A DNA stretch of 25,122 nt from a virus. Both the position numbers and the translations under genes were made by a program. Where the stretch lies: positions 1-25,122 of IMG/VR virus record IMGVR_UViG_3300032087_004140. One strand, given 5' to 3'. The notes under the pieces are model-generated. The model was not told the DNA's origin and did not search any database. It saw only the letters and a list, made by a program, of their open reading frames with translations. The first letter of the stretch is position 1. Every line of letters begins with the position of its first letter. This document shows positions 1 to 17,194 of the stretch, in pieces.

Positions 1-1455
1 AAACTCACAAGGCGTAAACTCGACCAAGGCGAAACGCCAGAGGAAATCGATGGACTTGACACGACGATTGACTGGAAGAACACAGGTGACAACTCGTATG
101 ACGGTGAGAAACTCAAACTTCTCGCCCACGACGAATCAGGTAAGTGGGAGCGTCCGGATAACATTTTAAATAACTGGCGAGTTACAAAAACAACATTAAG
201 ATTAGGTAGCAAGATTGTTGGTAAGTGTATGATGGGATCAACGAGTAATGCTCTTGACAAAGGTGGTGATAACTTTAAAAAATTATACTATGCATCAGAT
301 GTCACACAAAGAAACCGCAATGGACAGACTAGCTCGGGATTATATAGTTTGTTCATACCTATGGAATGGAACTACGAGGGATTCATCGATTCTTATGGCG
401 TACCTGTATTCGACTCACCGAAAGACGTCGTTAAGGACACGCAGGGTGATTTAATTATTAATGGTGTTATAGAACACTGGGAAAACGAAGTTGAGGGTCT
501 TAAAAATGATCAAGACAGTTTAAATGAATATTACCGCCAGTTTCCAAGAACAGAGAAACACGCATTTAGAGACGAAGCGAAGTTATCTTTATTTAATCTA
601 ACTAAAATTTACGAGCAAATAGATTATAACGAAGATGTAAAAAATAAAACCATGATTACCAAAGGTAATTTTCAATGGGCAAATGGTATAAAAGATACGT
701 TTGTAAGTTTTGTGCCAGATAACAATGGTAGATTTTTAGTTTCATGGATTCCACCTACAAATCTACAAAATCGTGTGATAATAAAAAATGGAGTGAAGTT
801 TCCAGGTAATGATCATATAGGAGCTTTTGGTTGTGACAGTTACGATATATCAGGAACAGTAGACAAGCGAGGTTCAAAAGGATCTTTACATGGTTTAACT
901 AAATTTAGTATGGAGCAAGCTCCTTTTAATATGTTCTTTTTAGAATACATATCAAGACCTCCAACTGCTGAAATATTCTTTGAAGATGTTTTAATGGCGT
1001 TGCATTTTTACGGCATGCCTATACTAGCAGAAAATAATAAACCTCGACTATTGTACTATTTAAAACGTAGAGGTTATAGAAAATTTTCAATGAACAGACC
1101 AGATAAAATATATAATAAACTGTCTGTTGCAGAAAGAGAAATAGGTGGTATACCTAACTCAAGTGAAGATATTAAGCAAGCTCACGCCGCTGCTATAGAA
1201 TCTTACATAGAAAACCATGTTGGATTTTTAACTAATACTTATGGTAGTATGTATTTTCAAAAAACACTAGAAGACTGGGCTAAGTTTAATATAAACAATA
1301 GAACTAAACACGATGCAAGTATTAGTTCTGGTTTAGCGATAATGGCTTGTAATAGAAATTTGTATAAACCTGTAGCTGATAGAACAATTAAAACTATAAA
1401 CTTAGGTATTAAAAAATATAATAATAAGGGAGATATATCAAAAATAATAGAATAA
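1..1455 (+). CDS. Phage terminase large subunit (TerL), 5' end cut by window edge
   Basis: This is the ATP-driven DNA-packaging motor with its headful/cos nuclease. The frame is open from base 1 (484 codons visible), so the ATG at 229 is internal and the gene begins left of the window. Seen: a Walker B-like LLAHDE (codons 40-45) and a coupling motif GSTSN (79-83), which belong to the ATPase. These are followed by an RNase H-like nuclease with FGCDSYD (acid D279), an acid in ILAENN (E344) and the final acid in KHDASISSG (D438). Walker A must lie upstream of the window. The portal ATG follows the TAA with no spacer, the usual terL-portal order. Oddity: the first 180 bases are about 48% GC with CTC/CGT/ACG codons, against roughly 25-33% further on. 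Family assignment is firm; the exact phage lineage is inference. Confidence 0.92.
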   Translation, partial: KLTRRKLDQGETPEEIDGLDTTIDWKNTGDNSYDGEKLKLLAHDESGKWERPDNILNNWRVTKTTLRLGSKIVGKCMMGSTSNALDKGGDNFKKLYYASDVTQRNRNGQTSSGLYSLFIPMEWNYEGFIDSYGVPVFDSPKDVVKDTQGDLIINGVIEHWENEVEGLKNDQDSLNEYYRQFPRTEKHAFRDEAKLSLFNLTKIYEQIDYNEDVKNKTMITKGNFQWANGIKDTFVSFVPDNNGRFLVSWIPPTNLQNRVIIKNGVKFPGNDHIGAFGCDSYDISGTVDKRGSKGSLHGLTKFSMEQAPFNMFFLEYISRPPTAEIFFEDVLMALHFYGMPILAENNKPRLLYYLKRRGYRKFSMNRPDKIYNKLSVAEREIGGIPNSSEDIKQAHAAAIESYIENHVGFLTNTYGSMYFQKTLEDWAKFNINNRTKHDASISSGLAIMACNRNLYKPVADRTIKTINLGIKKYNNKGDISKIIE

Positions 1456-3864
1456 ATGATTTATACTAATTCAAACAGTTCATTTCCTGATCAGGTAGTA
1501 CCAGATGCAGAGAAACAAACATTAGAGTATGGTAAATTAGTTGGTCAAGCTATAGAATACGAATGGTTTGGTAATAACAACAATGGTTCATATAATAGAT
1601 ATGGAAGTAGATTTTCAACTTACTACAACGACTTTCATCAAAGAAGATTATACGCTAGAGGTGAGCAATCAATAAAAAAATATAAAGACGAATTATCTAT
1701 AAACGGTGATTTATCTTACTTAAATTTAGACTGGAAGCCAGTTCCTGTTATACCAAAATTTGTAGATATAGTTGTTAATGGTATGTCTGATAGAGTATAT
1801 GATATAAAAGCTTATGCTCAAGATCCAGTTTCATTAAAGAAGAGAACAGATTACGCAGAAATTTTACATAGAAATATAGTACAGAAACAATATTATCAAG
1901 CTGTACAACAACAAATGGGTATAGATATATCTGATGTACCAGATCCTGAAAATGCACCACTAACAGAAGAAGAGCTTTCAGTACACATGCAACTTGATTA
2001 TAAACAAGCTATAGAAGTTGCAGAAGAGGAAGTTATTACAGATATATTAGATAGGAATAGATTTGATTTAGTAAAGCGTAGAGTTAACTATGATTTAACT
2101 GTATTGGGTATAGGTGCAGTTAAAACTTGTTTTAACAAAGCAGAAGGTATAAAAGTTGAGTACGTAGATCCAGCAAATTTAGTTTGGTCATACACTGAAG
2201 ATCCAAACTTTGAGGATATGTATTACGTTGGTGAAGTTAAATCAATAACAATACCAGAGTTAGTTAAAAGGTTTCCACACTTAACACCAGCAGAAATAGA
2301 AGTAATACAAAAATATCCTGGTAATACAAACTATACTAGAAACTGGAACGGTAGAGACAGTGAGAATACTGTACAAGTTTTATTTTTTGAATATAAAACA
2401 TACACTAATCAAACATGGAAAATAAAACAAACACCTTACGGTTTAGAAAAAGCATTAGAAAAACAAGACACATTTAATCCACCTGAATCAGATGGATTTA
2501 AAAAGATAGACAGATCTATCGAAGTATTATATACAGGAGCGAAGATATTAGGCTTTGATAACATGTTAGAGTGGAAGATGTCTGAAAATATGACTAGACC
2601 TTTTGCTAACAGTGTTAAAGTTAATATGAATTATAATCTTTGTGCACCAAGAATGTACAAAGGTAGAATAGAATCTCTTGTAGGTAGAATGATGAGTTTT
2701 GCTGATATGATACAAATAACTCATTTAAAACTACAACAAGTATTATCAAGAATGGTACCTGATGGTGTTTATCTTGACGCAGATGGTTTAGCAGAAGTTG
2801 ATCTTGGCAATGGTACTAATTATAATCCAGCAGAAGCATTAAATATGTATTTCCAAACTGGTAGTATAATTGGTAGATCAATGACTCAAGATGGTGATAT
2901 GAACCACGGCAAGGTACCAATACAAGAAATGCAAACTTCTAGTGGTGGTGCTAAAATACAATCACTAATACAAACCTATCAGTATTATCTACAAATGATG
3001 AGAGATGTTACTGGTTTAAATGAAGCGAGAGATGGTAGTATGCCTGATCCTGATTCTTTAGTTGGATTACAAAAAATAGCTGCTGCTAATTCTAATACAG
3101 CAACTAAACACATATTACAAAGTAGTTTATATCTTACATTAAGGACATGTGAAAACATAGCATTAAGAATAGCTGATTGTTTAGCTTTCCCAACATTAAG
3201 AGAATCAATACAATCTAGTATATCAAGGTTTAACGTACATACATTAGACGAATTAACTACTTTAAATTTACATGATTTTGGTATATTCTTAGAGTTAGAA
3301 CCTGATGACGAAGAAAAACAATTAATAGAACAGAATATACAAATAGCTTTACAAAGCGGACAAATATACTTAGAAGATGCTATAGATGTAAGAGAAGTTA
3401 AAAACTTAAAGTTAGCTAATCAAGTATTAAAGAAAAGAAGAAAGAAAAAATTAGAACAAGATCAACAAGCTCAACAAGCAAATATACAAGCGCAAGCTCA
3501 AGCTAACGCTGAACAAGCTGAAAGAGCAGCTATGAACGAAGTTCAAAAACAAGAAGCTATAGCTCAAACAACATTGCAAATAGAACAAGGTAAGTCTCAG
3601 TTTGAAATACAAAGAATGCAGCAAGAGGCAGATATCAAAAAGCAATTACTAGAGTTAGAGTATAAATATAAAATGGATTTAGCTAAAGTAGAAAGTGAAG
3701 CTAAAGCTAATTTTGAAAAAGAAAAAGAAAATAGAAAAGACGAAAGAACCAAAATACAAGCAACTCAACAAAGTGAGTTGATAGACCAAAGAAACAATAA
3801 ATTACCACCAAAGAATTTTAGTGACGATCAGACAATGATTGATCTAGACAGCTTTGGTATTTAA
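1456..3864 (+). CDS. Portal protein
   Basis: 802 aa. Portal proteins form the dodecameric ring at one capsid vertex through which DNA enters and leaves. The call rests on position directly after terL and before scaffold and capsid, on length (crAss-like portals are also long), and on recalled resemblance of the body (for example the region around KFVDIVVNGMSDRVYDIKAY, about residues 108-127). The C-terminal part starts with a basic run KKRRKKK (659-665). A Q/A-rich stretch and a long charged coiled coil follow to about residue 775, probably the barrel/crown tail that projects into the capsid. ATG abuts the terL stop (TAAATG) without a Shine-Dalgarno sequence, so translation is likely coupled. 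Ile is mostly encoded by ATA. Function is fairly sure; the coiled-coil tail could alternatively interact with scaffold or internal proteins. Confidence 0.85.
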   Translation: MIYTNSNSSFPDQVVPDAEKQTLEYGKLVGQAIEYEWFGNNNNGSYNRYGSRFSTYYNDFHQRRLYARGEQSIKKYKDELSINGDLSYLNLDWKPVPVIPKFVDIVVNGMSDRVYDIKAYAQDPVSLKKRTDYAEILHRNIVQKQYYQAVQQQMGIDISDVPDPENAPLTEEELSVHMQLDYKQAIEVAEEEVITDILDRNRFDLVKRRVNYDLTVLGIGAVKTCFNKAEGIKVEYVDPANLVWSYTEDPNFEDMYYVGEVKSITIPELVKRFPHLTPAEIEVIQKYPGNTNYTRNWNGRDSENTVQVLFFEYKTYTNQTWKIKQTPYGLEKALEKQDTFNPPESDGFKKIDRSIEVLYTGAKILGFDNMLEWKMSENMTRPFANSVKVNMNYNLCAPRMYKGRIESLVGRMMSFADMIQITHLKLQQVLSRMVPDGVYLDADGLAEVDLGNGTNYNPAEALNMYFQTGSIIGRSMTQDGDMNHGKVPIQEMQTSSGGAKIQSLIQTYQYYLQMMRDVTGLNEARDGSMPDPDSLVGLQKIAAANSNTATKHILQSSLYLTLRTCENIALRIADCLAFPTLRESIQSSISRFNVHTLDELTTLNLHDFGIFLELEPDDEEKQLIEQNIQIALQSGQIYLEDAIDVREVKNLKLANQVLKKRRKKKLEQDQQAQQANIQAQAQANAEQAERAAMNEVQKQEAIAQTTLQIEQGKSQFEIQRMQQEADIKKQLLELEYKYKMDLAKVESEAKANFEKEKENRKDERTKIQATQQSELIDQRNNKLPPKNFSDDQTMIDLDSFGI
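3466..3525 (+). repeat. Low-complexity Q/A-rich coding repeat in portal C-terminus
   Basis: Repeated CAAGCT/CAACAAGC-type hexamers encode alternating Gln and Ala (QQAQQANIQAQAQANAE). It sits between the basic run and the coiled coil of the portal and is likely a flexible or helical extension prone to length variation. Confidence 0.6.
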
Positions 3865-3888
3865 TCATTAATTTTATAATATTATATT

Positions 3889-5076
3889 ATGTCAGAAGAA
3901 AAAATAGTAGACAATAAGTCTGAAAGTTTAAAAATCAAAAAGAAACCTAAAAAGTTAACTAATAAAACAAAACAAGTTACAAAGGTAGATTTATCTAAAA
4001 AAGAAGAGGATGCCGTTCAAGAGCCAACAACAACGAAAGTTGTGTTACAGTCTAATGAGCAAAGCGAAGAGACAGGGAAAGAGAGCGAAGTGGGATTGCA
4101 AGAAGTGGGAGAAACACACAACGAACAAGAAAAACCTACCGAAGAGGGTAAAAAAGAAGAAATAGATGTAATACAAGAGATTAAAGAAGAAGGTGTTAGT
4201 GAAACATCAACTCTTGAAAACATAAACAAAGATATTGAAAATAATCCGCAATTAAATTTACCAGAAAATGTCGAAAGTTTAGTAAACTTTATGAATGAAA
4301 CTGGAGGTACTATTGAAGATTATATTCGACTAAATGCTGATTATTCTAATGTGAGTGATGATGCATTACTAACAGAGTATTATAAGAATACTAAACCTCA
4401 TCTTGATGCTGACGAAATTAAATTTATCATGGAAGATAATTTTGAATTTGACGAGGATTATGATGATGAAAAAGTTATACGTAAGAAAAAGCTTGCGTAT
4501 AAAGAAGAAGTTGCAAAAGCCAAAAACTTTTTAGAAGATCTTAAAAGTAAGTACTATCAAGAGATTAAATCTCGACCTGGTACTACTCAAGAACAACAAA
4601 AAGCAATGGACTTTTTCAATAGATATAATGAGGATCAACAAAGAGCTAAACAGAATCATGAGGATTTTAAAGCTAAAACTAAAAACTTTTTCACAAACGA
4701 ATTCAAAGGTTTTGATTTTAATTTAGGTGAAAAGAAATTTAGATACAGTGTGCAAAATCCAAGTGAAGTTGCAGATGTTCAAAGTGATATCAACAATTTC
4801 GTTAAGAAGTTCTTAAACGAAGATGGTAGAATAAATGATCATCAAGGTTATCATAAAGCTCTTTATGCTGCCCGTAATGCTGATACAATAGCTAGACATT
4901 TTTATGAGCAAGGCAAAGCCGATGCTACTAAAGATATAGCTGCTAAATCTAAAAATATAAGTAATGAACCAAGAGCAACGTCTACTGGTGATGTTTATAT
5001 TAATGGTTTAAAAGTAAAAGCAATAAGCGGTGTAGACAGTGACTCATTAAAACTAAGAATTAAAAAATCAAAATAA
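3889..5076 (+). CDS. Probable capsid scaffolding protein
   Basis: 395 aa, very acidic. It lies between portal and major capsid genes, the classical place of a scaffold. Residues 1-110 are low-complexity Lys/Glu-rich and probably disordered. Residues about 120-330 are predicted helical and charged (for example EDYIRLNADYSNV and AKAKNFLEDLKSKYYQEIK). The C-terminus is a basic tail (LKLRIKKSK), the kind of element that binds coat protein in P22-type scaffolds. No protease motif was seen, so a separate or fused maturation protease is not evident here. The start is preceded by a pure A/T leader (TAATATTATATT) and no Shine-Dalgarno sequence. A G/C-richer patch of about 120 bp lies in the disordered N-terminus. 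The role is inferred from position and composition; a minor head protein is the alternative. Confidence 0.55.
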   Translation: MSEEKIVDNKSESLKIKKKPKKLTNKTKQVTKVDLSKKEEDAVQEPTTTKVVLQSNEQSEETGKESEVGLQEVGETHNEQEKPTEEGKKEEIDVIQEIKEEGVSETSTLENINKDIENNPQLNLPENVESLVNFMNETGGTIEDYIRLNADYSNVSDDALLTEYYKNTKPHLDADEIKFIMEDNFEFDEDYDDEKVIRKKKLAYKEEVAKAKNFLEDLKSKYYQEIKSRPGTTQEQQKAMDFFNRYNEDQQRAKQNHEDFKAKTKNFFTNEFKGFDFNLGEKKFRYSVQNPSEVADVQSDINNFVKKFLNEDGRINDHQGYHKALYAARNADTIARHFYEQGKADATKDIAAKSKNISNEPRATSTGDVYINGLKVKAISGVDSDSLKLRIKKSK

Positions 5077-5087
5077 AAACATAAATT

Positions 5088-6530
5088 ATGAGTTTTGTAA
5101 ATGGTGGGTCTTTTCCCGCGTCTCTCGCTCCTGCTCAAAGTCAGATAGCTCTAACGTCTAACTATTTAAGTTTTACGGATGCTACTGGTGGAAACTTTGC
5201 GCAACAATACTTACCTGAGCTTTATGAAGCTGAGGTTGAAAGATATGGTAACAGAACTGTATCTGCTTTCTTAAGGATGGTTGGTGCTGAAATGCCAATG
5301 ACATCTGATCAAGTTGTTTGGTCTGAACAAAATAGATTGCACGTTGCTTATGACGATTGTGTTGTAGCTAATGCTGGTGCTGATATCACGGTTAATATAC
5401 CAGGTGGTACTGGTACTTCTACTTTAGCTATTAGACAAAACCAAACTATCTTGGTTTCTAATGGAGTATTAAGTGTACCATGTTTTGTTGACGCAGATAC
5501 TTCAGCGTTAACAGGTGCTGCTATTACTTTTAGTGTTGAACCTTACACATCAACTGACTTAGTTGCTGCTGGTTTTGGTGCTACAGAAGCTGTTAAACTA
5601 TTTGTTTACGGTTCTGAGTTTGCTAAAGGTACTAGAGGTATGAATGGTGCTATTGAACCTGAGTTCACTCAATACAATAACAAACCAATAATCATCAAAG
5701 ACAAATACGAAGTATCTGGTTCTGATGCTGCTCAAATTGGTTGGGTTGAGGTTGCTACTGAAGATGGTACAACTGGTTATTTCTGGTATTTAAAAGCTGA
5801 ATCTGAAACAAGATTGAGATTTGAAGATTACTTAGAAATGGCAATGGTTGAATCTGAAAGAGCTACTAACGTTGCTTTAACAGGTGCTAACATCGAAGGT
5901 TCTGAAGGTATGTTTGCTGCTATTGAAAACAGAGGAAACGTTTACAACGATTTCGCTGGTGCTGCTGCTCCTGGTTCAGGTGCTATGGCTGATTTCGATG
6001 ACATCCTTAAGCATTTAGATAAGCAAGGTGCTATAGAAGAAAACATGTTATTTTTATCAAGAAGAACAGCTCTTGATTTTGATGATATGATTGGAGCTAT
6101 GGCAGGTGGAGGTTATTCTTCTACTCAAGCTGCTTCTTACGGTTTATTCGATAACGAAGCTGAAATGGCGTTAAACTTTGGTTTCTCTGGTTTTAGAAGA
6201 GGTTCTTATGACTTCTATAAAACTGACTGGAAATATCTTAACGATGCTTCTACAAGAGGTTTAACTGAGGATATTGATGGTGTTTTAGTTCCTGCTGGAA
6301 CTTCAACTGTTTATGACCAAATTCTTGGTTCAAACATTAGACGTCCTTTCTTACACGTAAGATATAGAGCTTCTCAAGCAGATGATAGAAGAATGAAGTC
6401 TTGGATCACTGGTTCTGTTGGTGGTGCATACACTGATGATCTTGATGCTATGGAAGTACATTTCTTATCTGAAAGATGTTTATGTGTACAAGCGGCTAAC
6501 AACTTCGTATTGTTCAAGTCAACTGTATAA
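5088..6530 (+). CDS. Major capsid protein, HK97-fold, crAss-like type
   Basis: 480 aa. It is the building block of the icosahedral head. The C-terminal third carries stretches I recognise as strongly conserved in capsid proteins of crAss-like and related marine phages: ALDFDDMIGAM, FGFSGFRRGSYDFYKTDW, VPAGTSTVYDQ, and IRRPFLHVRYRASQADDRRM. An inserted beta-rich region (about residues 90-175) probably forms the E-loop/insertion domain. No large N-terminal delta-domain is apparent, consistent with a separate scaffold. Codon use differs from neighbours: of 20 Ile codons only 4 are ATA (7 ATC, 9 ATT), typical of a very highly expressed gene. It ends with tandem stops (TAATAA) and is followed at once by an intrinsic terminator. 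ATG is preceded by AAACATAAATT, without Shine-Dalgarno. Confidence 0.92.
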   Translation: MSFVNGGSFPASLAPAQSQIALTSNYLSFTDATGGNFAQQYLPELYEAEVERYGNRTVSAFLRMVGAEMPMTSDQVVWSEQNRLHVAYDDCVVANAGADITVNIPGGTGTSTLAIRQNQTILVSNGVLSVPCFVDADTSALTGAAITFSVEPYTSTDLVAAGFGATEAVKLFVYGSEFAKGTRGMNGAIEPEFTQYNNKPIIIKDKYEVSGSDAAQIGWVEVATEDGTTGYFWYLKAESETRLRFEDYLEMAMVESERATNVALTGANIEGSEGMFAAIENRGNVYNDFAGAAAPGSGAMADFDDILKHLDKQGAIEENMLFLSRRTALDFDDMIGAMAGGGYSSTQAASYGLFDNEAEMALNFGFSGFRRGSYDFYKTDWKYLNDASTRGLTEDIDGVLVPAGTSTVYDQILGSNIRRPFLHVRYRASQADDRRMKSWITGSVGGAYTDDLDAMEVHFLSERCLCVQAANNFVLFKSTV

Positions 6531-6540
6531 TAACTAATTT

Positions 6541-6568
6541 AGCAGGGTGGTTCGCTGCCCTGCTTTTT
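6541..6568 (+). terminator. Intrinsic terminator after the capsid gene
   Basis: The inverted repeat AGCAGGGTGG / CTGCCCTGCT closes on a TTCG loop: 10 pairs, two of them G-U, with a G-C closing pair. A run of five T follows. It starts 10 bp after the capsid stop and probably reduces, rather than abolishes, read-through into downstream genes. Confidence 0.88.
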
Positions 6569-6592
6569 ATAAATATTTAAAAATAAGAAATT

Positions 6593-6922
6593 ATGGGATT
6601 AATTAGATTAACAGCAAACGATGGCGTAGCTCCTGAAAACGCAGGAGATAAGCAATTGGTTAATGGTACTTATAACGTTAGAACAACTGTAGCAAGTGGT
6701 GTTGTTTCAATACAACTTGACGCTGTTGATACAACTTTGGACGTAATGACATTAACTTACACTGCTACCGGACCTGCTACAATTCCTTCAGATGCAGATA
6801 TTTATGCTGCTTGGGAACCTGTATTAATTGCTGCTCAGGGGTCAGACTGTAGCGTTTTTAATGCACCACAGCTTGAAAATAGCGATGGAGCTATAATATA
6901 TCCAGCTATCGCTATAGGATAA
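6593..6922 (+). CDS. Small beta-rich protein after capsid; possible head decoration protein
   Basis: 109 aa, Thr/Val/Ala/Gly-rich with alternating hydrophobic residues, suggesting a compact all-beta fold. I do not recognise a family. It is flanked by intrinsic terminators on both sides and follows the major capsid gene directly, a common place for decoration or head-fibre proteins. Its Ile codons (4 ATT, 4 ATA, 1 ATC) lie between the capsid gene and the ATA-rich neighbours, hinting at fairly high expression. The start ATG is preceded by AATAAGAAATT, sharing AAATTATG with the capsid start; no other in-frame start is near. No signal peptide or membrane segment is seen. Decoration is inference only; a head-tail joining accessory is the alternative. 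Confidence 0.6.
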   Translation: MGLIRLTANDGVAPENAGDKQLVNGTYNVRTTVASGVVSIQLDAVDTTLDVMTLTYTATGPATIPSDADIYAAWEPVLIAAQGSDCSVFNAPQLENSDGAIIYPAIAIG

Positions 6923-6928
6923 AATAAT

Positions 6929-6960
6929 TAAGATCCCACTTCGGTGGGGTCTTATTTTTT
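6929..6960 (+). terminator. Intrinsic terminator with cUUCGg tetraloop
   Basis: AGATCCCAC and GTGGGGTCT pair (9 pairs, one T-G) around a TTCG loop closed by C-G, the extra-stable UUCG tetraloop. Two flanking A/T pairs extend the stem, and a T-run to 6960 follows. It lies 6 bp after the stop of the 109-aa gene. Confidence 0.92.
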
Positions 6961-6979
6961 AATTATATTATATTATATC

Positions 6980-7756
6980 ATGGAAGAAACAAAAACAAAA
7001 TCTCCTAAAGTAAAAAAAGATACTTGGGAGTACAAAGATAGATATTACTATCTAACTAATGGAAAATCTCCATTAACATTTACTATATCATCTAGGCATT
7101 CATCTAGAAAACCTTTACTTTACTTTGATGAAGAAAAAGGTTATAACAGAGAACTTAGATACGCAACAAATCAAAAATCTCCATTTGTTGACGAGCAAGA
7201 CGGATCAGTAACTCTTGGTCGTATAGTATTTCAAGATGGTACTTTATTTGTACCTAAATCAAACGTTCAACTCCAAAAATTATTATCACTATATCATCCA
7301 AATAAAAACAAACTATATAGAGAAAAAGATGAAGTGGTTGAAGCTACAGATGAACTTGATTTCTTATATTTAGAAGCTGAAGCAATGAATGCAGCTATGA
7401 ATATGGATATTGATCAAGCTGAAGCAATACTAAGAGTTGAGGTTGGTACTAAAGTTGGAGATTTAAGTTCTAAAGAACTAAAAAGAGATTTAGTAATATT
7501 TGCTAAAAGAAATCCAGGTTTATTCTTGGAATTAGCTAATGATGAAAACGTTGAGTTAAGAAACTTAGCAATAGTAGCTGCTGAAGCAAATATTATAAAG
7601 TTATCACCAGATCAAAGAACATTTACTTGGGCAAGTAATGGTAAAAAGTTAATGACTATACCGTTTGATGAAAATCCATTCTCAGCAATGGCAGCTTTCT
7701 TCAAGACAGATGAAGGTGTAGAAGTTTTCAAGTCTATACAGAAAAAGCTCAAATAA
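6980..7756 (+). CDS. Conserved structural-module protein of unknown function
   Basis: 258 aa from the ATG at 6980. An in-frame ATG at 6944 lies inside the preceding terminator hairpin and would add a hydrophobic extension (GSYFLIILYYI), so I reject it. The N-terminus is Lys-rich (MEETKTKSPKVKK), followed by an aromatic, beta-type part (about residues 15-100: WEYKDRYYYL, SSRKPLLYFDEEKGYNRELR) and a helical acidic half (about 120-250). I recall similar proteins in the same position, between capsid and neck genes, in uncultured marine phages, but none with a known role. It has its own terminator on each side. It could be a head-completion or minor virion protein. The upstream leader is all A/T (ATTATATTATATTATATC), like that before the scaffold gene. 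Confidence 0.62.
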   Translation: MEETKTKSPKVKKDTWEYKDRYYYLTNGKSPLTFTISSRHSSRKPLLYFDEEKGYNRELRYATNQKSPFVDEQDGSVTLGRIVFQDGTLFVPKSNVQLQKLLSLYHPNKNKLYREKDEVVEATDELDFLYLEAEAMNAAMNMDIDQAEAILRVEVGTKVGDLSSKELKRDLVIFAKRNPGLFLELANDENVELRNLAIVAAEANIIKLSPDQRTFTWASNGKKLMTIPFDENPFSAMAAFFKTDEGVEVFKSIQKKLK

Positions 7757-7771
7757 TATGTAACTATATAT

Positions 7772-7800
7772 AAGGCGGCAATTACGCCGCCTTTTTTTTT
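7772..7800 (+). terminator. Intrinsic terminator, GC-rich stem and nine T
   Basis: AAGGCGGC pairs perfectly with GCCGCCTT around a six-base loop (AATTAC), followed by an uninterrupted T-run. It begins 15 bp after the stop of the 258-aa gene and ends 11 bp before the next start. Confidence 0.93.
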
Positions 7801-7811
7801 AAACTATTATT

Positions 7812-8546
7812 ATGGCAATAAGCGTAGACGATGTATACAAGACTGTATTGCTAATATTAAACAAAGAGCAAAGAGGTTATATAACACCTGCTGAGTTTAA
7901 TAAATTAGCTACACAAGTACAGTTAGAAATATTTGAAAACTATTTTCAATATGAAAATAAGCAATATCGTATACCGGATAATGAGTCTGAGTATAGCGAT
8001 AGATATAAAAACGTGGATGAAAAAATTGCCATATTTAAAGAAACTTCAAGTTCAAGCACCAGCCCTGTAACTATTGCATCTCAGACTGGTTCTAATGAAT
8101 TTTATAAGTTAGGTACAGTTATATATAATAATAATACTGAAGTACAAAAAGTACAACCTAACGATCTACTATATGTTAACAACTCTCCGTTAACAGCTCC
8201 TACTTCTAAATATCCAGTTTACACTTTAGCTAATGGAGTTATTACAACTTCTCCTCAACTAAACGTTAATTTTACATATCTTAGAAAACCAGCTAATGTG
8301 GTATGGAGCTACTGGATAGACAACAATACTGGTGGTTATATATACAACGACAATGGTCCTCAACCTCCTGGAACCACTGGTCCTTTTCCAGCTAGTGGAT
8401 CTCAAGATTTTGAACTACATAAAACAGAACAAACTGAACTTGTTATAAAAATATTAATGTACAGTGGTGTAATAATACGTGATCCGCAGATAGTTCAAAC
8501 AGCTGCTGGTATGGATCAACAAGAAACAGCACAAGAAAACTCTTAA
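7812..8546 (+). CDS. Neck/ring (head-tail connector) protein candidate
   Basis: 244 aa. The N-terminal helical block (about residues 1-50: VDDVYKTVLLILNKEQRGYITPAEFNKLATQVQ) resembles, from memory, small structural proteins between capsid and tail genes of crAss-like phages, which build the stacked rings below the portal. The middle (about 85-180) is polar and probably beta. A Gly/Pro/Asn-rich loop at about 178-197 (NNTGGYIYNDNGPQPPGTTG) looks flexible. The last 50 residues are helical (ELVIKILMYSGVIIRDP). It begins a run of tightly coupled genes: tandem stops TAATAA abut the next ATG. The start follows AAACTATTATT, no Shine-Dalgarno. The exact ring position cannot be told from sequence. Confidence 0.65.
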   Translation: MAISVDDVYKTVLLILNKEQRGYITPAEFNKLATQVQLEIFENYFQYENKQYRIPDNESEYSDRYKNVDEKIAIFKETSSSSTSPVTIASQTGSNEFYKLGTVIYNNNTEVQKVQPNDLLYVNNSPLTAPTSKYPVYTLANGVITTSPQLNVNFTYLRKPANVVWSYWIDNNTGGYIYNDNGPQPPGTTGPFPASGSQDFELHKTEQTELVIKILMYSGVIIRDPQIVQTAAGMDQQETAQENS

Positions 8547-8549
8547 TAA

Positions 8550-9668
8550 ATGGCACTACTAACAGAATCAAACGCTCAATACTATTCAGGACAAAAAAGC
8601 TTTGTTGCTCAATTTACAGCACCATTTCAAGACTTTGATTGTAGTGATTTTAATACTACACTTTTAGACACTGTAGCTAATGTAAGCAATACTAACTACT
8701 CTGTAACAGTTGACAACGTACTACTTAATCCTAGTGATTACAGTTTAAATGGTGAAAATATAGTTAATATATCAATTGTTGTTAATGCTAATAGTATAGT
8801 AGTTGTACAATTAAATCAACCGGCAATAAATAATAACTATGGAAGTTATGAGTATATATCTTTACACGATGTTATTAATAACTTTATTGTTGCTTATATA
8901 GGTAAAGATAAATTAATACCTGATGCTAAAAGAACTGATGTAATGTTTCACGCTAAGCGTGGTTTACAAGAATTTAGTTATGACACGTTAAAAAGTATTA
9001 AATCTCAAGAGTTAACAGTTCCACCGAGTTTATCAGTAGTTATACCTCAAGATTATGTCAATTACGTTAAATGTTCTTGGGTTGACAGCGTTGGCGCTAA
9101 ACACATTATATACCCAACTAGAGTAACTTCTAATCCTACAGAATTACCTATACAAGATGACGAAGGTGTACCAACACAAGATAGTTTAGAAGAAAATTTA
9201 GAAGCTCAACAATCTTTTACTGAAGAAAGATGGGCTACTCAAGACAATACATTATACAGTGACTTTGATGATTATAGACTACCAGAAGGTCAATGGAATT
9301 TTGGTCAAAGATATGGGCTGCAACCAGAAGAAGCTCAAATAAATGGTAAGTTTACTATAAATGAAAGACTTGGTAAAATGTCTTTTAGCAGTGATCTTGC
9401 CGGTAAGCTAATTATACTTGAATACATATCAGATGGTTTAGCTGTAGACGAAGATATGAAAATACCTAAATTTGCAGAGCAAGCTATGTATATGCATATA
9501 GCTCATGCTATACTTTCAACAAGAATTAATATACCTGAGTACATAGTACAAAGATTTAAAAGAGACAGAAGAGCTGCACTTAGGAATGCTAAAATTAGAC
9601 TATCTAATATTAAGATAGAGGAAATAGCACAAATATTCAGAAACAAATCTAAAATAATTAAACACTAA
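8550..9668 (+). CDS. Neck adaptor / ring protein with N-terminal beta domain
   Basis: 372 aa. The first ~90 residues form a beta-rich domain (SVTVDNVLLNPSDYSLNGEN), of a type also seen at the start of podovirus tail proteins. From about residue 100 there is a helical adaptor-like part (YEYISLHDVINNFIVAYIG, KRTDVMFHAKRGLQEFSYDT), and the C-terminus is basic and helical (YIVQRFKRDRRAALRNAK), similar to gp4/gp11-type adaptor proteins that bind portals. I recall such proteins as crAss-like neck or 'tail tubular' proteins. The ATG follows the previous tandem stop directly, and the TAA overlaps the next ATG by one base (TAATG), indicating translational coupling with the tail proteins. Structural role fairly sure, exact ring uncertain. 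Confidence 0.7.
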   Translation: MALLTESNAQYYSGQKSFVAQFTAPFQDFDCSDFNTTLLDTVANVSNTNYSVTVDNVLLNPSDYSLNGENIVNISIVVNANSIVVVQLNQPAINNNYGSYEYISLHDVINNFIVAYIGKDKLIPDAKRTDVMFHAKRGLQEFSYDTLKSIKSQELTVPPSLSVVIPQDYVNYVKCSWVDSVGAKHIIYPTRVTSNPTELPIQDDEGVPTQDSLEENLEAQQSFTEERWATQDNTLYSDFDDYRLPEGQWNFGQRYGLQPEEAQINGKFTINERLGKMSFSSDLAGKLIILEYISDGLAVDEDMKIPKFAEQAMYMHIAHAILSTRINIPEYIVQRFKRDRRAALRNAKIRLSNIKIEEIAQIFRNKSKIIKH

Positions 9669-12600
9669 TGCCAGAAGTTAAAAATAATTTCCTCAAGTCT
9701 AAAATGAATAAAGACTTAGATGCGAGGATATTACCTAACGGTGAATACAGAGATGCTCAGAATGTTAACGTAAGTAAATCTGAAGGTGAAGATGTTGGAT
9801 CATTAGAAAATGTTTTAGGTAACGTTTTACTTAGTGATTTTGGCTTAAGTGATGAGTGTGGTTTAGAAATTATAGGTAAATACATGGATGTTGATAACAA
9901 CCGTATATTTGCTATGTTAACTAATTATACAGATACGTCAGCAGATAAGTTAAGTAATCACGCTGTAAAGATACAAGGTACACCAATTAATGATCACATT
10001 AAATGTTATATTTGTGTTTATAATATTAGTACTGATACTGGATCTGTAATAGTTGAAGGTCCTTTCTTAAACTTTTCTAGAACACATCAGATATACGGTA
10101 TAGATCTTATAGAGGATCAATTATTTTGGACTGACAACAGAAATCAACCTAGAAAAATAAATGTTACTACCGCAATAAACGATCCAAGTTATTACTATAC
10201 TGAAGAACATATTTCAGTAGCAAAGTATGCTCCTTTTTTACCTATTCAATTTGTTACTACTACAAGTAATGTTAGTACGATGCTAGATACTGTTAGAGAG
10301 TTTTTACCTGACGGCACTACAGCAAATCCAACTAAAGTACCCAACTGGGATGGTGATGAAGATTTTTTAGAAGATAAGTTTATTAGGTTTAGTTATAGAT
10401 TAAAGTTTGACGATAATGAATATTCATTAATAGCACCATTTAGTCAAATAGCTTTTATACCACAGGAAGATGGTTATTTTATAAGAAGAGGTGATGGTGT
10501 TACTAAAGTTATTGATAAAGATAATTTATCTTCCACTTATAGATCTACTGAGGTTTCGTTTATGCAAAACAAAGTTACTCAGATAGGTATTAAAATACCA
10601 CCAATAACAAATGGTATAGATCCAGTTAATCCATTAGGTTTAAGAGGGTGGGATAATGTTGTTGACGAGTTTAAAGTAAAACAAGTAGAAATACTTTATA
10701 AAGAGTCTAATTCTAACGCTATAAAAATTGTAAAAGTTATAGACGCTATAGATTTAGCTAAAACACCTACAAAGTTAATAGATAGTTCTGGTAATTTGAA
10801 TTACGTTTATAAAAGTGAAAAGCCAATTAAAACTTTACCAGCTAACCAAACAACAAGAGTTTCTGATATTACACCAGTAAAAGCTTTAGCACAATCTGTT
10901 AGTGGTAATAGAGTTATATATGGCAATTACCAAGACAAGCATTCATATCCTTCATCTTTAAATTATCAAGCGAGTGTTGTTGATAAAGCATATAGCGATG
11001 CTGTGGAATATCCAAATCACACATTAAAACAGAATAGATCTTATGATGTTGGTATTATATTATCAGACATATACGGTAGACAATCTGGTGTTATAACAGC
11101 TTCTCTTGAAGGTTTTTCTACAGTATTTAATAATTATAAAGAAAGTGGTTTTTCTGAAGTTTCTCCATTAGGTGATATAACAACTTGGGTTGGTGATATG
11201 TTAAATGTAGATTTTTTTGAAACAATACCAACAACATCGAATTTACAAGGTTACCCAGGTCTTCATTCGGAGTTAAATCCTTTAGGTTGGTTTAGTTATA
11301 AAGTAGTTGTTCAACAAAAAGAACAAGAATATTATAATGTTTATTTGCCAGGTATATTAAGTGGTTATGTTGTAGATGATGGAAGTGGAAATCCTCAAGC
11401 GGTTGAAAACTCAGAAATTAATCCAACTTGTCACGTAGTTATACATGGTGACAATATAAATAAAATACCAAGAGATTTAAAAGAAGTAGGTCCTAATCAA
11501 TTCTTATTTAGATCATCCAAACAAATACTTGGTAATGATGAACCAATAGCAGATCAGTTTCAAGAGTTTAGAGATTTAATAGCTAGAGGTGTAGATTTTG
11601 CTGGTACTGTAGAAAACTCTAGCGTAAAGCTTTTTGGTAGAGTTACCAATTTTAATTACACTTCAACTCAAGCTGGTGGCACTGTACCTGGATTAAGAAA
11701 TAGTAGACAATTTTATCCTTATACGACAAATGGAACAATAAGAGATGAAGTTGTTACAATAGCTAAATTAACAGACTTAGGTTTGTTAGCTGATGACGCT
11801 AGCGGTTGGGCTTTAGATGGAGACACAACAGATCCTTTAATTGGTAAATTAATAGTTAAAGATATAACAATAGGTGCTACAGGAACTGGAGCTGCTGGTA
11901 ATATGTTACCAACTATATCTATATATGAAACAGAACCATTCGAGTCTCAATTAGATATATATTGGGAGACTACTACAACTGGCTTAATAGAAGAGTTAAA
12001 TAACAATATAATTGCTAATACTACAGAAACTGTAAACTTACTTAGAAGAGGTCCTTCTAGTTCTGGCGTTTGGAACTCACAACTGTTTAAAACAAACGTC
12101 TCAGAAGGGGTTAACCCTATATCTTCTCCAGTAAATATTATTATTGATAACGAATTATTAGGAGCTTTTTATAGTTTTACTGCAACTACACCTGATATAG
12201 ATACTTCAGCACCTGGAAGTATGTCTTTAGTTGAAGCGAAAGATAACGCTGGTAATACTGTTACAAATAAATTTAACTTAACTTTAGGTAGTGCTTTAGG
12301 TTATTATAGATTAGATTTAGTTGATTATGTTACTTTTAGTGGCAATCAAAGTGAAAATGAATTTTATTTTACTATTGAAGTAACAGAAGCTCTAACCCAA
12401 ATATCTAGTCAAATAGTAATAGGTCCTTTTGTAATACTTAATATATTACCAAGCTTTTTGAGTCCATTCCCTACTCTTGGTACTGGTTCTATAAGTGGTG
12501 GTAGTATTACATTTAACAATCCTGTTAAAGCAATAAATGGTAGCGCTGATCCAGTTAACAATACTAATGGGTTAACATTTACTGTAGAGTCACAAACAGA

Positions 12601-12772
12601 TTCATCAGCAAACCCAGTAAATTACTTCTATACTACATCATCTGGAATTAATGGGCAAGCTGCGCTAGCGAATAATCCAGCGCCTCAAGATAGTTATAAA
12701 GTAACATTTAGAGTTACAGATGCTGGTGGCGCTTTCGCTATTTCATTAACAACAACAGTAAATATATCATAA
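9668..12772 (+). CDS. Large tail protein, 'stabilization'/muzzle type
   Basis: 1034 aa. The N-terminus (about residues 5-55: NNFLKSKMNKDLDARILPNG, then GEYRDAQNVNVSKSEGEDVG) is the signature I recall for the crAss-like 'stabilization' or muzzle protein, which closes the distal end of the short tail. A large beta-rich body (propeller-like blocks such as GSVIVEGPF and FWTDNRNQPRKINVT) runs to about 700. A further conserved block (ETEPFESQLDIYWETTTTGL, about 756-775) leads into a helical EELNNNI segment. About residues 780-1034 are Thr/Ser/Asn-rich beta sandwiches, probably Ig/cadherin-like and possibly surface-exposed. It overlaps both neighbours by one base (TAATG). The next gene may be the C-terminal half of the same ancestral protein. 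Function is inferred from family recall. Confidence 0.75.
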   Translation: MPEVKNNFLKSKMNKDLDARILPNGEYRDAQNVNVSKSEGEDVGSLENVLGNVLLSDFGLSDECGLEIIGKYMDVDNNRIFAMLTNYTDTSADKLSNHAVKIQGTPINDHIKCYICVYNISTDTGSVIVEGPFLNFSRTHQIYGIDLIEDQLFWTDNRNQPRKINVTTAINDPSYYYTEEHISVAKYAPFLPIQFVTTTSNVSTMLDTVREFLPDGTTANPTKVPNWDGDEDFLEDKFIRFSYRLKFDDNEYSLIAPFSQIAFIPQEDGYFIRRGDGVTKVIDKDNLSSTYRSTEVSFMQNKVTQIGIKIPPITNGIDPVNPLGLRGWDNVVDEFKVKQVEILYKESNSNAIKIVKVIDAIDLAKTPTKLIDSSGNLNYVYKSEKPIKTLPANQTTRVSDITPVKALAQSVSGNRVIYGNYQDKHSYPSSLNYQASVVDKAYSDAVEYPNHTLKQNRSYDVGIILSDIYGRQSGVITASLEGFSTVFNNYKESGFSEVSPLGDITTWVGDMLNVDFFETIPTTSNLQGYPGLHSELNPLGWFSYKVVVQQKEQEYYNVYLPGILSGYVVDDGSGNPQAVENSEINPTCHVVIHGDNINKIPRDLKEVGPNQFLFRSSKQILGNDEPIADQFQEFRDLIARGVDFAGTVENSSVKLFGRVTNFNYTSTQAGGTVPGLRNSRQFYPYTTNGTIRDEVVTIAKLTDLGLLADDASGWALDGDTTDPLIGKLIVKDITIGATGTGAAGNMLPTISIYETEPFESQLDIYWETTTTGLIEELNNNIIANTTETVNLLRRGPSSSGVWNSQLFKTNVSEGVNPISSPVNIIIDNELLGAFYSFTATTPDIDTSAPGSMSLVEAKDNAGNTVTNKFNLTLGSALGYYRLDLVDYVTFSGNQSENEFYFTIEVTEALTQISSQIVIGPFVILNILPSFLSPFPTLGTGSISGGSITFNNPVKAINGSADPVNNTNGLTFTVESQTDSSANPVNYFYTTSSGINGQAALANNPAPQDSYKVTFRVTDAGGAFAISLTTTVNIS

Positions 12773-14571
12773 TGGCGTTTTCAGTAAAGATAAAATATTA
12801 TAATTCTTTTTGGTTAAAAAAAGTTACAGCTGAAGCTGTTGATCCAGCTACTGATCCGGAGTTAGAACAAGATCCAGAATGGTGTGATTGGCCTGGCTTG
12901 CCTTGGAATCCAAGTGGTTGGCCAACTTATCCATTTGGAGCAGATAGAACATGGAATACTGACACTGGCGATCCAAATAAAGTAAGTGCTTATTATTGGT
13001 ACGTTGAAGAATCTAGAATAAGAGGAGGATATAATAATACGAGTGTTGATTTAGGTGCTAAAGCTTATTTAAAAGAAGAAGATACAACAGCTGATAATAG
13101 AGACGCATCGTTAATCTATTCTGGTATATATAACTCTAGAACTGGTGTTAATAACACCAATCAATTCCCATCAGGTCAAGAGATAACAAGAAGCTTAGAT
13201 CCGCTACAAGGGTCAATACAAAAGTTACATGCTGAAAATACGGACTTAACTATATTTCAAGAAAACAAAACAAGTAAAGCGTTAATAGATAAAGACGCAG
13301 TTTACTCAGCTGAAGGAAGCGCGTTAACAACTTCAGGTAGACTGGTTATAGGGCAAATTATACCTTACTTAGGTGAGTATGGTATAAGTAAAAACCCGGA
13401 AAGCTTTGCTGTGTTTGGTTATAGAAAGTATTACACTGACAGGTATAGAAATAAAGTATTAAGATTATCTAGAGATGGTATAACTGAAATATCTAATTAC
13501 GGTATGCGTGATTATTTTAGAGATCAGTTTACTGAGCTATCCGATGATTATCAACAAGTGTTGTTAGGACCATACACTTTTGATAACACTGCTACTGGAT
13601 CAGATAATATATTTGATGTTGGAATAAACGATTGTTGTGAAGCGATACCGGGTGCATCAGTTGCTGTTATTGACGCTACAGATGGTTTTCAAATTTTAAA
13701 TGTTGGAGACGGTAGTGGTTTCAATGGTAATGGTAATCAGCAAAGCGCAATACAAGATTGTAGTACAACTTTTAATGGAGAAATAGTAGTAGATGTTCAA
13801 AATGACTGGACGGATGAATCTATTTCTTATTTAAATAACGCTACAGAAGTTTATTTTGTTATATACCAAAAACAAAGAATAGTTGGTGGTTATGATAATT
13901 ATAACGATGAATATGTTTTATCTATACAAAAAGATCCACCTAATTCTTCACAAGATGTAGATACTTACGATACTTTAGTATATGACGAAGGAGCTAAAGG
14001 CTGGGTTAGTTTTTACACTTATAAACCACAGTTTGTAGATAGTTTAAGAGGCAGTTACTACAGTTTTTATGATGGTAAGCTGTGGAAACACCACGACTTA
14101 AATCAAGGTAGAAATACATTTTATAATACATACAATGATTCAACTATAAGTTTAGTATTTAATCCTAGTCCATCTATGACTAAAAACTTTAATACTCTGT
14201 CTTATGAAGGTAGTAATGGTTGGGAAGCTTTTACAGGTATATCTGACCCACAAGAGTTTGATGATTTAAACGGAGTACCAACATCTTATGAAGACGTAAT
14301 ATTGCTAACTAAAAGTTATGATGAAGGTAAATATACCGATGGAGGTGTGATTTATAGATCTGGGTTCGATCGTAAAGAAAATAGATATGTAGCCAGTATA
14401 ATTAATAATAATAGAGAGCAAAGAATTGGTGAAATAGTGTTTGGTAATCAAATGAGTGGCATAAAAGGTTATTATGTAACTGTTACTCTTAGAACAGACA
14501 GCTCAACAGATCTAGCTGGACCAAAAGAACTATTTGCTGTTTCATCTAACTTTGTAATGTCATCATACTAA
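12772..14571 (+). CDS. Tail protein, C-terminal partner of the muzzle-type protein
   Basis: 599 aa. It starts with a beta strand (SVKIKYYNSFWLKKV), then a Trp/Pro-rich segment (residues 37-55, WCDWPGLPWNPSGWPTYPF), which is unusual and probably packs against another tail protein. The block SGIYNSRTGVNNTNQFPSGQ, followed by SLDPLQGSIQKLHAENTDLT, and later GEYGISKNPESFAV and VLRLSRDGITEISNYG matches, from memory, the distal half of tail proteins in related marine phages, where it can continue in the same frame as the upstream muzzle part. The ATG lies in TAATG at the end of the previous gene, so the two are surely co-translated. No protease or glycan-degrading motif is seen. Likely part of the tail hub or nozzle. 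Confidence 0.7.
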   Translation: MAFSVKIKYYNSFWLKKVTAEAVDPATDPELEQDPEWCDWPGLPWNPSGWPTYPFGADRTWNTDTGDPNKVSAYYWYVEESRIRGGYNNTSVDLGAKAYLKEEDTTADNRDASLIYSGIYNSRTGVNNTNQFPSGQEITRSLDPLQGSIQKLHAENTDLTIFQENKTSKALIDKDAVYSAEGSALTTSGRLVIGQIIPYLGEYGISKNPESFAVFGYRKYYTDRYRNKVLRLSRDGITEISNYGMRDYFRDQFTELSDDYQQVLLGPYTFDNTATGSDNIFDVGINDCCEAIPGASVAVIDATDGFQILNVGDGSGFNGNGNQQSAIQDCSTTFNGEIVVDVQNDWTDESISYLNNATEVYFVIYQKQRIVGGYDNYNDEYVLSIQKDPPNSSQDVDTYDTLVYDEGAKGWVSFYTYKPQFVDSLRGSYYSFYDGKLWKHHDLNQGRNTFYNTYNDSTISLVFNPSPSMTKNFNTLSYEGSNGWEAFTGISDPQEFDDLNGVPTSYEDVILLTKSYDEGKYTDGGVIYRSGFDRKENRYVASIINNNREQRIGEIVFGNQMSGIKGYYVTVTLRTDSSTDLAGPKELFAVSSNFVMSSY

Positions 14572-14575
14572 TTTA

Positions 14576-15037
14576 ATGAAAGATAATTTAATTTTAAATA
14601 AAAGAAAAACTATACAAACTCTTCAAGATATATTAATACATAACAGTGAAAAATATGATATTAAAGGTGACGGTAAACACATCGTTCACACAGAAGAGTT
14701 TCCATTAAAACATACTTTTGCAGATGGTATATATGTAAGACAAATGAATATGGACAAAGGTTCCACTGTCATTGGTGCTATACATAATCATCTGCATGTA
14801 TGGTTTCTACTAACAGGTCATTTAATCGTTGCAACAGAGGACACAACAGAAGAGTATATAGCTCCATGTTATAAGCTAGCAAAACCTGGTAGTAAAAGAG
14901 TTATATACGCAGTTGAAGATTCAATATTCGTAAACATACACAAGAACCCAAACAATAATGAAAATCTAGATGAGTTGGAAAGCGAAATAGTTTCATTGAA
15001 TTTTGAAGATTATGAAGAATACATTAAAAATAAATAA
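14576..15037 (+). CDS. Cupin-fold protein in the tail operon
   Basis: 153 aa. A small single-domain beta-barrel: the cupin motif 1 is visible as G-A-I-H-N-H-L-H...G (H70, H72, H74, G81), and motif 2 as PGSKRVIYAVEDSIFVNIHK (about 105-124). The clustered histidines could bind a metal such as Mn, Fe, Zn or Ni. An N-terminal helix (about 8-25) and an acidic C-terminal tail (130-150, LDELESEIVSLNFEDYEEY) flank it. I recall similar cupins in the same tail-gene neighbourhood of uncultured marine phages, without a known function. It sits 4 bp after the tail gene and 3 bp before the ejection-protein gene. Ile is mainly ATA (10 of 16). It may be a virion or chaperone-like protein, or act on sugars; which one cannot be told. 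Confidence 0.75.
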   Translation: MKDNLILNKRKTIQTLQDILIHNSEKYDIKGDGKHIVHTEEFPLKHTFADGIYVRQMNMDKGSTVIGAIHNHLHVWFLLTGHLIVATEDTTEEYIAPCYKLAKPGSKRVIYAVEDSIFVNIHKNPNNNENLDELESEIVSLNFEDYEEYIKNK

Positions 15038-15040
15038 GTC

Positions 15041-15691
15041 ATGAGTTTTGTATTAGTAGGATTAGGTGCTGTTAGTGTAGGTATGAGTACATATCAAGCT
15101 ATTAGCCAGAACAAAAAAGCAAAGCAAGCTGAAGCCGATGCTCGTGATCATGAGTTAGAAATAGAACAATTAGAGGCAAATAGACAAGCCCTTATAAATC
15201 CTTATGAGAACATGTCTAATGAATACGCTAATTTAGGTGTAGCAACTCAAGCTGCAGAGTTTCAAGCTCAAGAAGCTGACATTGCTTTAGCTAATACTTT
15301 AGATACATTAATGGCAACAGGAGCTGGCGCCGGTGGAGCTACAGCTTTAGCACAAGCAGCGTTAAAAAGTAAAATGGGTATATCTGCTAGTATAGAACAA
15401 CAAGAAGCTAATAATGAAAAACTAAGAGCTCAAGGTGCTATGGAGGTCCAAAAATTAAAAGCTGGTGGTGAACAATGGAAGTGGGCACAACAAGAAGAAA
15501 GAGAAATGCAGAAACTAGATAGAGAGCAAGCAATGATGGATAACGACTTACAGCAGCAACAGATGCATCAACAAAATGTTTATAATGCAATGGGTGATAT
15601 AGCTGGAACATTAGGTAGTGTTGCAGGTGGTATTACTAGCTCAGAAGGATATGAGTTTGATCCATCAAATCCATTTTGGAAGCAAGGTTAA
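15041..15691 (+). CDS. Internal virion (ejection) protein, T7 gp14-like by position
   Basis: 216 aa. The N-terminus is hydrophobic (about residues 2-20, SFVLVGLGAVSVGMSTY). A long Ala/Gln/Glu-rich coiled coil follows (25-80), then a Gly/Ala-rich hydrophobic patch (about 93-118, ATGAGAGGATALAQA), a second coiled coil (118-180) rich in Gln and Met (DLQQQQMHQQ), and a short Gly-rich hydrophobic C-terminus. This architecture is typical of small podovirus internal proteins that leave the head first and insert in the outer membrane. Position at the head of a trio of increasing size (216, 492, at least 2,642 aa) mirrors T7 genes 14-15-16. No sequence-level homology can be claimed. It ends with tandem stops TAATAA. 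Confidence 0.65.
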   Translation: MSFVLVGLGAVSVGMSTYQAISQNKKAKQAEADARDHELEIEQLEANRQALINPYENMSNEYANLGVATQAAEFQAQEADIALANTLDTLMATGAGAGGATALAQAALKSKMGISASIEQQEANNEKLRAQGAMEVQKLKAGGEQWKWAQQEEREMQKLDREQAMMDNDLQQQQMHQQNVYNAMGDIAGTLGSVAGGITSSEGYEFDPSNPFWKQG

Positions 15692-15696
15692 TAATT

Positions 15697-15704
15697 AATA
15701 CAAT
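15697..15704 (+). promoter_or_regulatory. Shared translation leader AATACAAT
   Basis: The eight bases directly before the ATG of the 492-aa gene are identical to those before the giant gene (17187-17194). No Shine-Dalgarno sequence is present; an A/T-rich leader with A at the -3/-6 area is the usual initiation context in Bacteroidota. The shared octamer may simply reflect A/T richness. Confidence 0.35.
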
Positions 15705-17183: not shown

Positions 17184-17186
17184 TAA

Positions 17187-17194
17187 AATACAAT
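17187..17194 (+). promoter_or_regulatory. Shared translation leader AATACAAT
   Basis: Identical to the octamer directly before the preceding gene's ATG. It fixes the start of the giant gene at 17195, because the next in-frame ATG would lose the conserved-looking N-terminal motif. No Shine-Dalgarno sequence. Confidence 0.35.

Follow-up and report, generated by a model that had tools for sequence, protein, structure and literature searches.

Conserved predicted terminators behind the capsid gene and its neighbour in podoviruses related to Elemovirus and Pervagoviridae

Three strong hairpins with T-runs stand one after another behind the capsid gene, a 109-aa gene (g109) and a 258-aa gene (g258) of a viral structural operon, and it was asked what such a series does to genes that all read in one direction. 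The original prediction had described a stepwise attenuator giving very high capsid mRNA, less of the next two genes and little tail mRNA, or alternatively a protection of processed 3′-ends. The window, i.e., the whole stretch of DNA analyzed (25.1 kb, 33% G+C), is a partial record with mechanical gene calls and covers the structural region of a podovirus in the order terminase, portal, g3 (395 aa), capsid protein, g109, g258, two probable tail-ring genes (R1 and R2) and muzzle. The major capsid protein gene (480 aa, 5088–6530, plus strand) was identified by PHROG 13704 (head and packaging, 3.9e-94) and by capsid or structural homologues in named phages, the one in Calle_1 being annotated as ‘major capsid protein’. 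R1 (244 aa, 7812–8546, plus strand), the first gene of the putative tail unit, matched PHROG 14543 (virion structural protein), and its counterpart in phi40:1 is structural by MS. The P22_portal match was just over the cut-off, and the crAss_MUZ match, also over the cut-off, covered residues 8–198 only, with crAss_MUZ_C found in the next gene. A giant open frame of more than 2642 aa (17195–25120), with a zeta-toxin/AAA_33 domain at its cut end, may be compared with the 11-kb structural gene of the elemo phages.

No match was obtained when the window was searched against phages at near identity or scanned with Rfam, or when the capsid protein and g258 were searched by sequence against solved structures. 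The phage is a podovirus with ties to Elemovirus and Pervagoviridae and a more remote one to Crassvirales, the order outside which its nearest named relatives are classed. It is marine and its host is probably a member of the Bacteroidota; the named genome bins were mostly of this phylum, which is only a weak indication because mis-binning (Pelagibacter, archaea) was obvious.

All three hairpins lie on the plus strand. T1 (6541–6572, stem-loop 6541–6564) has a predicted energy of -15.6 kcal/mol and the T-rich tail TTTTATAAAT, T2 (6929–6960, stem-loop 6929–6954) one of -15.4 kcal/mol and the tail TTTTTTAATT (TTTTTT), and T3 (7772–7800, stem-loop 7772–7793) one of -14.4 kcal/mol and a long T-run, nine consecutive T if the last bases of the stem are included. 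In each of them a G+C-rich stem-loop is followed at once by the T-run. They were the three strongest plus-strand hits both in a terminator scan of positions 1–20000 and in a second scan of the whole window, exactly where the original prediction had placed them, and the next-best hit on this strand (17416–17437, -11.2 kcal/mol) lay within a coding frame. Termination strength was estimated with an E. coli-based score, which is a guide only for this host. The two TTCG loops that had been noticed are those of T1 and T2; the extra-stable C(TTCG)G form occurs in T2 only, T1 having G(TTCG)C. It was also true that no other gap carries such a signal, partly since no gap except those occupied by T1 to T3 exceeds 25 nt and the remaining ones (24 nt at most) have no room for it.

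The original prediction had proposed looking for the same hairpins at the same gaps of related genomes. We collected 290 related viral loci and named phages, of which 193 remained once redundancy was removed at 95% capsid identity, and counted a terminator wherever a hairpin of -9 kcal/mol or lower with a T-run was found no more than 90 nt past the stop codon. Such a terminator followed the capsid gene in 140 of 187 non-redundant relatives and g258 in 134 of 169, numbers that come from related phages and do not count independent events, and it followed the terminase, portal, g3, R1 and R2 genes in 0 of 771 cases in total. When these stretches were dinucleotide-shuffled, a terminator appeared in 0.4% or less. 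About one quarter of the relatives had no detectable terminator at the capsid or the g258 site. The stem was kept at its site in relatives while its arms diverged highly, pairing being retained among hairpins that had been chosen for pairing; for T2, both sides were changed in five of eight pairs. A consensus fold of the T3 gap was not obtained, stems with different arms being misaligned. Capsid-gene terminators were present in elemoE, Calle_1, phi40:1, Panino, MW202828, phi19:3 and crAss001, and the corresponding hairpin of phi14:2 had a poor T-run. A mere tendency of longer gaps to contain hairpins was ruled out by the portal-g3 gap of the wider relatives, which has a median of 49 nt and contains promoter elements and almost no terminators. 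Since conservation at both sites is far above chance, we regard T1, T2 and T3 as genuine, selected and conserved intrinsic terminators, as far as sequence can predict them.

The genes around T1 and T2 differ between the window and most of its relatives. In the wider family the layout is capsid gene, terminator, g258, with the terminator near the capsid stop codon in 90 of 100 short gaps. Within the window's own clade (capsid identity of at least 58%, a working cut), a majority of phages carry small inserted genes that separate the capsid gene from the terminator. When this gap measured 150–600 nt, the terminator before g258 was retained in 24 of 26 members, and only the window and locus L001 had one between the capsid gene and the insert. 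The terminator predicted ahead of the 109-aa gene is thus real in the window, and most relatives have none before their small gene. The inserted genes, mostly of 90–130 aa, form several BLAST-unrelated clusters of similar style and would fit exchangeable capsid decoration proteins. For g109 itself (6593–6922, plus strand) this function is a guess; its homologues were found in only four loci, the slot of other clade members holds unrelated clusters, and its AlphaFold model (pLDDT 42) was unusable. The capsid-g109 gap is 62 nt in the window; in locus L011, some 30 nt precede a g109 homologue of 74% identity, with a similar leader before the ATG and no T1. Because of this short gap without T1, we consider T1 an extra terminator, probably a later addition of about 33 nt; T2 is the ancestral capsid terminator, equivalent to the single capsid-gene terminator of the relatives.

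Sigma-70 consensus scans say little about promoters here because the -7 box of Bacteroidota is different, namely TAnnTTTG (PMC6847099, PMC9723704). Among the wider relatives this box was found before g3 in 99 of 109. Before the capsid gene TAnnTTTG was found in 0 of 193 relatives, and before g258 TAHHTTTG was present in 21 and lacking in 98 of 119 wider relatives, the elemo group being exceptional with a TAnnTTTG element there in 10 of 11. Directly after the g258 terminator, TAHHTTTG was found in 106 of 109 wider relatives, and whenever both were present (102 of 102) the box was downstream of the hairpin. The units of the wider relatives would therefore run promoter-g3-capsid-T-g258-T and then promoter-rings-muzzle. 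As a promoter is mostly absent after their capsid terminator, expression of g258 probably needs readthrough. The terminator-promoter junction likewise suggests that transcription of the tail genes probably starts from a separate promoter and that T3, standing ahead of the tail-ring genes, probably marks the border of a transcription unit, not a third step of attenuation. The stepwise attenuator thus finds support from the capsid gene to g258 and loses it for the tail genes; with T3 as a boundary, little tail mRNA does not follow.

On balance, we favor with moderate confidence a reading in which T1 and T2 are partial terminators passed by readthrough, T3 ends the capsid unit, and the tail unit is transcribed from a promoter of its own. 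Many polymerases that pass the capsid gene would stop at T1 and T2, so that capsid protein, needed in hundreds of copies per particle, would be made most, and g109 and then g258 in decreasing amounts. T3 would close this unit and insulate the tail unit, whose promoter would be of the Bacteroidota type after the hairpin in the wider relatives and, probably, a phage-specific element 5′ of the hairpin in the clade. We count for this reading that the slot genes sit with the capsid gene, upstream of T2. The hairpins very likely set the amount of capsid protein against those of other structural proteins; in crAss001 the capsid protein has nine copies per asymmetric unit, and the tail rings are dodecameric, their proteins being needed in dozens and not hundreds (PMC10172136).

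The gene that would depend on readthrough of T2, g258 (6980–7756, plus strand), is conserved beside the capsid gene. Its start is the ATG at 6980, the mechanical ORF beginning at a GTG inside T2, and all 43 of 43 aligned members matched PHROG 34748 (unknown function). The AlphaFold model (pLDDT 88) matched the fold of a phi14:2 protein, and nothing significant was obtained from the PDB. Because of its place beside the capsid gene, this fold match and a phi40:1 counterpart that carries no virion protein label, g258 is perhaps an assembly factor, which seems plausible. Directly before its ATG stands the motif TAATTATATTATATTATATC (6960–6979, plus strand), shared in the clade; throughout the clade the TATTATATTATAT motif abuts the start codon of two genes only, g3 and g258 (3865–3888 and 6960–6979 in the window), and in the wider family a different leader, AAATCAAATCAAA, is common to the same two genes. 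The motif may be either a translation leader or a leaderless promoter. The ATTATATTATAT motif there could be a phage promoter; we did not adopt it as a -10 box because it abuts the ATG.

These motifs bear on a rival reading that we consider unlikely, in which T1 to T3 are complete unit boundaries, every downstream gene has a phage-specific promoter, and no attenuation by readthrough occurs. A motif common to g3 and g258 and placed directly before each is what such promoters might look like, and the box of the elemo group before g258 points the same way, as does the lack of host-type promoters in the clade: TAnnTTTG was not found in the intergenic regions of the window, and among upstream gaps TAHHTTTG was found in 0 of 156 when six long records of the clade were scanned and in 46 of 146 for six wider records. 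A sigma factor encoded by clade records also counts in favor of this reading: record G001 has a 243-aa sigma70-like factor with regions 2 and 4 (L303:1958-2689, minus strand). All 38 of the 38 long sigma-bearing records tested had a capsid protein 54–69% identical to that of the window, and 0 of 24 long wider-family records had the factor; of the clade records retrieved with the capsid gene, most of which are fragments, 2 of 14 showed it, and the window, itself partial, did not. Against complete boundaries stand the 98 wider relatives without the box before g258, the position of the g258 motif, which would place a normal transcription start within the coding sequence, and the lack of any candidate element between T1 and g109.

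Relatives of the sigma factor occur in at least 126 viral contigs, with homologues in loci L337–L416. An early-type motif, A[CT]ACGA-N7-10-GATAATA, was found in the clade; as TTACAA..TAAACACGA-N7-10-GATAATA it is repeated before small genes of G001, G036, G043, G061 and G056 (e.g., L451:14303-14325), and it was absent from six wider-family records. A family search for a phage single-subunit RNA polymerase gave no match, and neither did its control. The clade seems to lack host-type promoters genome-wide and to use others, so it cannot be concluded that there is no promoter between the hairpins. The original statement that none is evident is correct for sigma-70 and for intergenic TAnnTTTG, but it overlooks the conserved elements at 6960–6979 and 7757–7771.

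The second of these, a clade-specific non-coding element on the plus strand (TATGTAACTATATAT in the window, clade consensus CAAGTGATTATAAT), has a GTRAY core and was found directly after the g258 stop codon, just 5′ of T3, in 51 of 56 clade members vs 5 of 115 wider relatives. Elements resembling it were also found at a small number of further intergenic positions in genomes of the clade, in one case directly next to an ATG. The element is a candidate phage-specific promoter. With a -10-like hexamer placed hypothetically behind the GTRAY core, transcription starting 7 nt downstream would begin inside the 5′ arm of T3 in 47 of 48 members. We propose only tentatively that the clade swapped host-type promoters for promoters of its own sigma factor and fused promoter and terminator at the capsid/tail border, with the start in the 5′ arm of T3; if true, polymerases of the capsid unit would be stopped at T3, and newly started ones could not form the hairpin and would escape.

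The same junction weighs on the idea of a pure attenuator, where a single upstream promoter serves three partial terminators and the tail genes are reached by readthrough only. Just 18 nt separate the stem of T3 from the start codon of R1, too short for a standard promoter, and TAnnTTTG precedes R1 in only 2 of 53 clade members; the promoter element at the g258-R1 junction of nearly all wider relatives and the conserved clade element immediately 5′ of T3 nevertheless make this reading improbable. That the hairpins mainly mark or protect processed mRNA 3′-ends without terminating transcription is very improbable: a strong stem near a stop codon would also block 3′ exonucleases, and some relatives (L052, L058) keep the stem with a poor T-run, but at least six T in the 10 nt after the hairpin, counted on wider-family hairpins found without requiring a T-run, were present in 106 of 115 cases behind the capsid gene and 72 of 75 behind g258, which points to termination, and the promoter element of the wider relatives comes right behind the g258 hairpin, as expected for the end of a unit.

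Partial termination followed by a unit boundary, the reading we prefer, may be compared with several known systems. The order portal, upstream gene, capsid, g258-like gene, rings and muzzle is similar in the Crassvirales phages crAss001 and phi14:2, and Crassvirales late genes are probably transcribed by the host RNA polymerase (PMC8375218, PMC10136315). Like the window phage, crAss001 has a strong terminator after the capsid gene, and also one after the auxiliary capsid gene; unlike it, crAss001 has none after gp33, the gene that follows the capsid gene, where the gap is 7 nt. Strong terminators of crAss001 (L086) lie at 33345–33373 and 41885–41918, after auxiliary capsid gp36 and muzzle gp44. 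RNA-seq of crAss001 is published, with coverage given in a figure only (PMC8375218); in the literature we found no terminator analysis for Crassvirales, no readable expression profile for phi14:2/phi38:1-type phages and no published RNA map for the present group. In Flavobacterium psychrophilum, also of the Bacteroidota, 3′-PT transcripts revealed transcription beyond predicted intrinsic terminators, which was read as partial termination (PMC9723704); this resembles our model and differs in that it concerns host genes and no phage capsid operon.

A terminator behind the capsid gene appears as a widely conserved design in a common marine and freshwater phage group, with a changeable slot for small genes located between the two, and one clade provides a natural experiment, having a sigma factor and no recognizable host-type promoters while still keeping the terminators. 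In T7, a terminator stands behind gene 10 (capsid), and downstream expression relies on readthrough. In LUZ100, a T7-like phage, the capsid gene is immediately followed by a strong terminator (PMC10134795). The present group is like T7 T-phi and LUZ100 in that an intrinsic terminator immediately follows the capsid gene inside a structural operon whose genes all point one way and whose low-copy tail genes come later, the arrangement found in the 140 of 187 relatives above. It differs from T7 in that a slot for variable genes separates the capsid gene from its terminator and that the next gene is followed by another conserved terminator, and the window phage differs in having up to three terminators in a row and in probably using the multi-subunit RNA polymerase of its host instead of a T7-type enzyme.
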